Source of the DNA: Clostridiales bacterium | GTDB taxonomy: Bacteria; Bacillota; Clostridia; Lachnospirales; Lachnospiraceae | Direction: 5' to 3' | NCBI GenBank assembly: GCA_023663185.1 | Contig: JAMPHY010000032.1 | Location: forward strand, 1-32,741 | Length of the DNA: 32,741 bases | In this document: positions 1-684 of the stretch, piece after piece | Layout: every line of letters begins with the position of its first letter | Position numbering within the stretch: position 1 is the first letter of the stretch | Position numbers and translations under genes: made by a program | Notes under the pieces: model-generated | Seen by the model: the letters and a program-made list of their open reading frames with translations, nothing else | Databases searched by the model: none | Told to the model about the DNA's origin: nothing

Positions 1-54
1 CAGACAGACAGACAGACAGACAGACAGACAGACAGACAGACAGACAGACAGACA
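1..54 (+). repeat. (CAGA)n tetranucleotide tract inside hsdS
   Basis: Thirteen and a half perfect CAGA units run from the first base of the window, so the true length may be larger. The tract is open in the frame of the downstream hsdS and encodes a repeating QTDR tetrapeptide (12 bases = 3 units = 4 residues). Change by one or two units would shift the frame; change by three would lengthen or shorten the protein by four residues. Confidence 0.95.
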
Positions 55-684
55 ATAATTAAGCTCATTCAGTATGTATTTGGTTATGCGGTTGTTAAAT
101 TGGATGATATTGCCACGATAACAAGAGGCGGTAATTTCCAAAAGAAAGATTTTACGGAAAACGGAGTGCCATGTATTCATTATGGACAAATATATACTGG
201 GTATGGAATATATACGGATAAAACATTACAATATGTGTCTGGAAAAACTGCTGAAAAGTCAAAAAAAGCAGTTACAAATGATATTATTATGGCAGTTACG
301 AGTGAAAACGTGGAAGATGTTTGTAAATGTGTAGCATGGTTAGGTAAAGAAGATATAGCGGTTAGTGGGCATACGGCAATTATTCATCATAACCAGAATG
401 CTAAGTATTTGGCATATTATTTCCATACTTCGCACTTTGATACACAAAAACGAAAATTGGCTCACGGAACAAAGGTTATCGAGGTTACGCCAGACAAACT
501 GGGGGATTTATTTATCCCACTGCCTGCTAAAGAGGAACAGGATAGAATAGTTAAAATTCTTGACCGTTTTAATGATTTATGCAATGATTTTGTTAGCGGA
601 CTTCCGGCAGAAATAGAGGCAAGGCAGAAACAATATGAGTATTATCGAGACAAATTACTAAATTTTAAAGAATTGAATAAATAA
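1..684 (+). CDS. hsdS: Type I restriction-modification specificity subunit HsdS (5' partial)
   Basis: This is the C-terminal part of a DNA-recognition subunit of a type I R-M enzyme, which binds DNA and directs HsdM methylation and HsdR cleavage. The frame is open from base 1 through the CAGA tract. It then holds one target-recognition domain (start near [14 protein letters not shown], with [19 protein letters not shown] at its end) and the distal conserved helix ([20 protein letters not shown]). A full HsdS has two such halves, so the QTDR repeat most likely occupies the central spacer helix between them. This is inferred because the first half lies outside the window. The only in-frame internal start seen is TTG at 100, with a poor ribosome site, so separate translation of the second half is possible but weakly supported. 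hsdR follows 84 bases later. Confidence 0.9.

Follow-up and report, generated by a model that had tools for sequence, protein, structure and literature searches.

A frameshifting repeat tract that probably switches a Type I HsdS subunit between two and three target-recognition domains in a Lachnospiraceae bacterium

The stretch of DNA analysed here, referred to as the window (32,741 nucleotides), corresponds to contig C25 in an assembly of 54 contigs, and its first base falls within a tetranucleotide repeat. The repeat is followed by a coding sequence for a target-recognition domain (TRD) of the HsdS specificity subunit and by an intact hsdR gene (Table 1). As an earlier note on this DNA had described, the 13.5 CAGA units are read in frame as QTDR; they form a perfect array. 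The frame opened by the tract comprises 227 residues and remains open up to the stop codon behind the TRD. Directly behind the tract, TAA triplets at 56-58 and 60-62 put a stop into each of the two frames not used by the TRD. Elsewhere in the window we observed a skipping-rope RNA and a gene for a 1080-aa protein, which also gave weak hits below the cut-off to MADS2 and BREX-2 PglX models; it looks like a second, solitary methyltransferase-type gene.

Table 1. Positions of the features found in the window.
Feature	Position	Strand	Evidence
(CAGA)13.5 tract, reads as QTDR repeats	1..54	+	repeat scan; 100% match
Double-stop junction TAATTAA	56..62	+	read off sequence
Third TRD (TRD3) and connector, stop 682-684	58..684	+	ORF list and Pfam
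Methylase_S match within TRD3 frame	85..621	+	Pfam; residues 29-207, 8.7e-16
Conserved connector CR3, 24 residues	601..672	+	connector probe
hsdR, 1048 aa, EcoR124_C type, intact	769..3915	+	ORF list and Pfam
Skipping-rope RNA	6252..6330	-	RF02924, 60.6 bits
1080-aa protein	23390..26632	+	Pfam; Eco57I and N6_Mtase matches

Since base 1 of the window is a contig end, the copy number of 13.5 is a minimum. In the same genome, the 20-mer (CAGA)5 is found at three contig ends only (start of C25, start of C24 and end of C6), while a fourth end, that of C54, carries a 15-nt match to the tract. Each of the three long ends contains about 51-55 nt of repeat. This looks like the k-mer limit of the assembly, and the similar lengths likewise mark 13.5 units as a lower bound.

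Both the upstream half of hsdS and hsdM, which the earlier note had proposed to recover, were located on C6, although the link to C25 is inferred. According to Pfam, C6 encodes HsdM, a YhcG/DUF1016 protein, a RhuM protein and HsdS, and Pfam together with the translation places two Methylase_S stretches in this HsdS, followed by the tract. No hsdS was found at the tract-bearing ends of C24 and C54. At these two ends, a promoter-like sequence and the tract follow two reading frames that are related to each other (92.5% identity); the first copy, the one tested, matched no Pfam or NCBIfam family. Because the C24 and C54 ends lack hsdS and the C6 end has it, the gene content suggests that joining C6 (TRD1, TRD2) to C25 (TRD3, hsdR) is the natural arrangement. 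With this join, the locus would comprise the hsdM, hsdS and hsdR genes of an EcoR124 (IC)-like Type I restriction-modification system, hsdM and hsdS being provided by C6 and hsdR by the window. The YhcG/DUF1016 nuclease-like gene and the RhuM gene of C6 lie between hsdM and hsdS (L022, 6172-8289).

Relatives in which the tract is unbroken were surveyed in several ways. A tract search across 397 genomes of the family gave a match in 26, and nine hsdS regions were taken from eight of the relatives' genomes. Two TRDs were found ahead of the tract in seven of the nine regions (L068, L069, L071-L074, L076) and a third TRD beyond it in seven (L068-L073, L075). The partial regions show the end of TRD2 only (L070), stop within the tract (L074, L076) or start within it (L075). 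L072 is in frame through the tract and encodes an HsdS of 624 aa. The hsdM and hsdR genes flank hsdS in L071, L072 and L166, and hsdR follows hsdS in all loci checked. In L068 (5843-9062, minus strand), the hsdR gene beside the switch is broken into two reading frames.

Using the junction pattern IKLIQYVFG, we found 87 stretches in the genome collection, 80 of them listed and seven unlisted (L157-L163); L093, L108, L110 and L144 were discarded by eye as chance matches. Together with the window this resulted in 84 junction loci, or 83 after dereplication. Counts of units, dN/dS and TRD clustering are based on the 80 listed loci, while the 83-locus count adds L157-L163. The upstream hsdS was readable in 51 of the 83 loci and is in frame in 18, encoding a three-TRD HsdS, and out of frame in 33, encoding a two-TRD HsdS. 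The proportion in frame fits the one third expected for drifting frames (p=0.77 vs 1/3). At the remaining 32 of 83 loci, the junction coincides with a contig end and the upstream hsdS is missing.

According to the record titles, 30 of the 80 listed matches are from Lachnospiraceae; other titles name Blautia, Faecalibacterium, Gemmiger, Phascolarctobacterium, Peptoniphilus and Peptostreptococcus, and the metagenome-assembled genomes labelled Arcanobacterium, Corallococcus and Mycoplasmataceae may be misbinned. Class-wide, the junction pattern was present in three of 391 genomes, including the genome studied here. Four stretches in IMG/VR carry the pattern, all with the tract, and two of them look identical to genome loci already counted. 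A probe for the 24-aa connector matched 24 of 299 genomes of the family. Reading of their junctions by eye showed 15 with the tract, four with two-TRD genes only and five that were partial or ambiguous; L189 of this set appears by eye to have an 8-nt repeat unit. The module of tract and TRD3 is dispensable, because two-TRD hsdS genes with the shared connector and without a tract exist (L175, L176, L184, L185).

The repeat unit at the shared site is not the same in all relatives. Among 77 loci, the unit is ACAG in 61, AAGC in three and AG, AACAG and AGAGC in two each, while AACGAGC, AATGC, AACG and AGCC occur once each. Of the other three, L104 was called AACTG, which at 11 nt barely counts as a tract, and no unit was called in two because the contig starts there. 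No unit length in the 77 loci is divisible by three, although lengths of 3, 6 and 9 were permitted in the scan. The AG call of L102 covers 8 nt only and several ACAG tracts only 10-16 nt; tracts as short as the latter may be unable to slip. All nine units tested are free of stop codons in every frame, but this is a weak point, since 192 of 240 tetramers share that property.

The tract represents a frameshifting repeat within hsdS with coding frame on both sides. At the junction, both other frames are closed by stops located at -15 to +11 around an Ile codon in 83 of 83 loci. This Ile codon is ATT in 78 of 83 loci, compared to 654 of 1213 Ile codons elsewhere in TRD3 (Fisher p=7e-15, a guide only because the loci are related). 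The out-of-frame HsdS ends with a stop at -2 in 14 of 33 loci and at +2 in another 14; the stops of the other five are at -4, -8, -10, +1 and -144.

Comparison of repeat numbers among relatives revealed that tract lengths vary. The earlier note had predicted that slippage in the four-nucleotide unit should switch the HsdS product, and in agreement with this, near-identical loci differ in tract length. L090 and L134, the TRD3 of which is 99.8% identical over 450 nt, have tracts of 58 and 142 nt, and L128 and L142 (94.2%) have tracts of 102 and 47 nt, while L089 and L139 (90.9%) carry different units, CGAA and GACA. These differences are no proof of clonal switching, because the compared loci belong to different species.

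The predicted products differ accordingly in their domain content. Pfam identified three Methylase_S stretches in 10/10 in-frame proteins tested, in each case within a single HsdS polypeptide, and two in 10/10 out-of-frame proteins tested; the sets were drawn from the 18 in-frame and 33 out-of-frame loci and picked for a complete start. A TRD3 of 180 aa or more is encoded in 76 of 83 loci; of the others, four run off the contig and three are short. The dN/dS of TRD3 is 0.03-0.23 in 36 usable pairs, including pairs with one out-of-frame member. These pairs were those kept out of 322 (0.02<dS<1.5), none having both members out of frame. TRD3 is therefore mostly intact and under purifying selection.

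Moreover, TRD3 sequences cluster among TRD1s and TRD2s. The TRD3 of the window is 70.5% and 71.1% identical to the TRD1 of L116 and L149, respectively, and TRD2 on C6 is 81% identical to the TRD3 of L104, L111, L123 and L125. This grouping indicates that TRD3 is a normal TRD which moves between positions. An HsdS model of PADLOC with 690 positions matches these proteins in part, and its length implies that long HsdS proteins are already present in databases; a search of NCBIfam gave hits below the cut-off only.

A further conserved element lies directly ahead of the tract. At the end of CR2, the codons of a Leu-Thr pair read TTGACA in 41 of 51 loci (41/50 when only loci encoding Leu-Thr are counted), compared to 3/16 such pairs at CR1 and 2/28 at CR3 of the same loci (p=2e-12 vs CR2, the loci being related). 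The Leu codon of this pair is TTG in 49/49 aligned rows, while the preceding Leu uses at least five codons; the rows cover 49 of the 51 loci, two having been dropped as too near an end. The hexamer 17 nt past TTGACA is NAYAAT in 30 of 51 loci. In 40 of 50 loci, a site with a promoter score of at least 9/12 lies no more than 8 nt from the tract, compared to 2.6% of random upstream sites. Judged from sequence, a sigma70-like motif, i.e. a predicted promoter, is embedded in the codons ahead of the tract. TTGACA was absent at the end of all four tract-less two-TRD hsdS genes mentioned above, as well as in L102 (CTCTCC) and in the GA-unit locus L187. On C6, the region 8200-9575 contained eight promoter-like sites and shuffled sequences a mean of 6.1 (sd 2.6), which is no excess; the best-scoring site in this region is the one ahead of the tract (11/12).

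Overall, we consider it probable that the window is the downstream flank of a phase-variable Type I (IC-like) hsdS, in which slippage switches between a two-TRD and a three-TRD HsdS and alters the motifs. For the relatives, the layout read from their sequences is close to certain: TRD1-CR1-TRD2-CR2, a frameshifting simple sequence repeat (SSR), a junction where stops close the two other frames, and TRD3-CR3. The frame switch is very likely, and the predicted change of motif by the switch is likely. Slipped-strand mispairing would alter the number of units. In one frame of three, the ribosome would read through and synthesize the three-TRD HsdS, while in the other two it would stop at the junction, yielding an HsdS with two TRDs and a short polar tail. 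The TRD3 of the three-TRD form might pair with another TRD and add or change methylated and restricted motifs. A clonal population might then carry at least two methylation states.

The earlier note had placed the tract in the spacer between two TRDs, so that a change of three units would shift the gap of a bipartite target as in EcoR124 and any other change would truncate the protein. The window by itself, with a tract and one TRD half, would agree with such an arrangement. However, the HsdS of C6 has two Methylase_S stretches ahead of the tract and all ten in-frame proteins have three, and for the relatives the reading is refuted, the tract coming after TRD2; for the locus as a whole we regard it as hardly credible. 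The complete recognition half that the note had recognized behind the tract does exist as a Methylase_S half, but it is the third TRD and not the second. Since a complete two-TRD HsdS lies ahead of the tract and TRD3 behind it, the change in spacing is not supported. Nor is the out-of-frame product a truncated protein; it has the usual composition of an HsdS with two TRDs. The locus resembles EcoR124 (Type IC) in that its HsdR carries EcoR124_C and in that the best match of the S profile to a solved protein was EcoR124II S (7bst, 1.1e-67). The length variation of EcoR124 is due to in-frame repeats (TAEL) in the central spacer, whereas here the frameshifting tract is located after TRD2 and not between TRD1 and TRD2. 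TAEL-like repeats are present in CR1 and vary in number among relatives (A1 columns 201-230 of the hsdS protein alignment). The comparison with EcoR124 fits these CR1 repeats rather than the tract.

Standard Type I enzymes work with two TRDs. The three-TRD protein might hence be inactive or dominant-negative, in which case the tract would inactivate the enzyme in one of the three frames rather than alter its motif. This is unlikely, as TRD3 is under purifying selection and is drawn, like TRD1 and TRD2, from one common pool, which an off-switch would not need, and as the three-TRD protein JHP1422 of Helicobacter pylori is functional. TRD3 is out of frame in 33/51 loci and short in 3/83, as expected for a decaying remnant next to a neutral repeat. 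Against such a remnant speak the differing units at one site, the double stop in 83/83 loci, the TRD3 of at least 180 aa in 76/83 and the low dN/dS; it is extremely improbable, and a dead TRD3 was ruled out by the conservation of TRD3, a strong counter-argument. Alternatively, the tract might chiefly tune transcription, with the promoter-like motif starting an RNA in the tract for hsdR and repeat length setting the output. The enrichment of TTGACA in CR2 and the position of hsdR after hsdS in L072, L166, L071 and the window are in line with this. Yet it leaves the double-stop junction and the intact TRD3 unexplained, and the promoter-like sites of C6 are not in excess, which makes it very improbable.

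Among known systems, NgoAV of Neisseria gonorrhoeae, in which hsdS1 and hsdS2 become fused when one G is lost, with a change of motif (PMC9577141; also PMC7394358), is the nearest switch. It shares with our locus the hsdM-hsdS-hsdR organization and a tract in hsdS that, depending on its length, joins or splits the parts coding for TRDs. In contrast, its tract is polyG and switches between one and two TRDs, while here units of 2-8 nt switch between two and three. JHP1422 is a three-TRD HsdS serving two motifs, and constructs with TRD1+TRD3 and TRD2+TRD3 give one motif each (PMC3936762). Like the proteins described here, it has three consecutive TRDs in one HsdS, its different TRD pairs serving different motifs; unlike in these proteins, two of its TRDs are identical, and the accessible part of that paper describes no repeat tract between its TRD2 and TRD3 (PMC3936762).

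According to PMC7394358, a survey found SSRs in 7.9% of hsdS genes in REBASE. Our loci resemble these genes in having the SSR within hsdS, and the survey may list members of the three-TRD tract family. Many of the repeat switches known for methyltransferases act as on/off switches of a gene (PMC7394358). In a search of titles and abstracts that covered a minority of the subscription journals, we recognized no description of a tract-gated third TRD. If our explanation is true, the tract adds or removes a third recognition domain while an HsdS is made in every frame, and cells of the same strain would differ in methylation, phage restriction and gene uptake. The many natural three-TRD HsdS proteins allow testing how the two HsdM of a Type I enzyme are shared among three TRDs.

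The arrangement of promoter and (GACA)n also occurs outside hsdS, elsewhere in the family. The same promoter score was reached in 13 of 15 non-hsdS (GACA)n loci, compared to 2.2% of random sites; 15 of 20 loci (L038-L067) were scored, the look-alikes L047, L049, L050, L064 and L067 being excluded, and intergenic status was judged by the flanks. Speculatively, and with considerable doubt, one may envisage a shared switch module whose tract coincides with the start site of a sigma70 promoter embedded in hsdS codons (TTGACA, 17 nt, NAYAAT). Transcription would open the repeat and provoke slippage, so that the module would act as an intrinsic mutator and switch the enzyme between a single motif (two TRDs) and several at once (three TRDs with varied pairing).

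In the genome studied here, (GACA)n directly after a sigma70-like promoter outside hsdS was observed at L021 (C24, 1-90 reverse) and L164 (C54, 1-60 reverse), and further examples are L038, L042, L043, L046, L048, L058, L059, L061 and L063. By eye, a CTGTC-like arm and a T-run follow the tract in L038, L042, L046, L048, L058, L059 and L063, as if these tracts belonged to a small RNA of variable repeat length with its own terminator; ten non-hsdS (GACA)n loci matched no Rfam family at gathering score. L045, L050 and L064 (at about 1501) form a look-alike trio with TTGACA...ATATATT and (GACA)n, followed by ...ATATGATTTCGAGAGC. In this trio, the tract may be part of a leader that precedes a gene encoding a short secreted or membrane protein.
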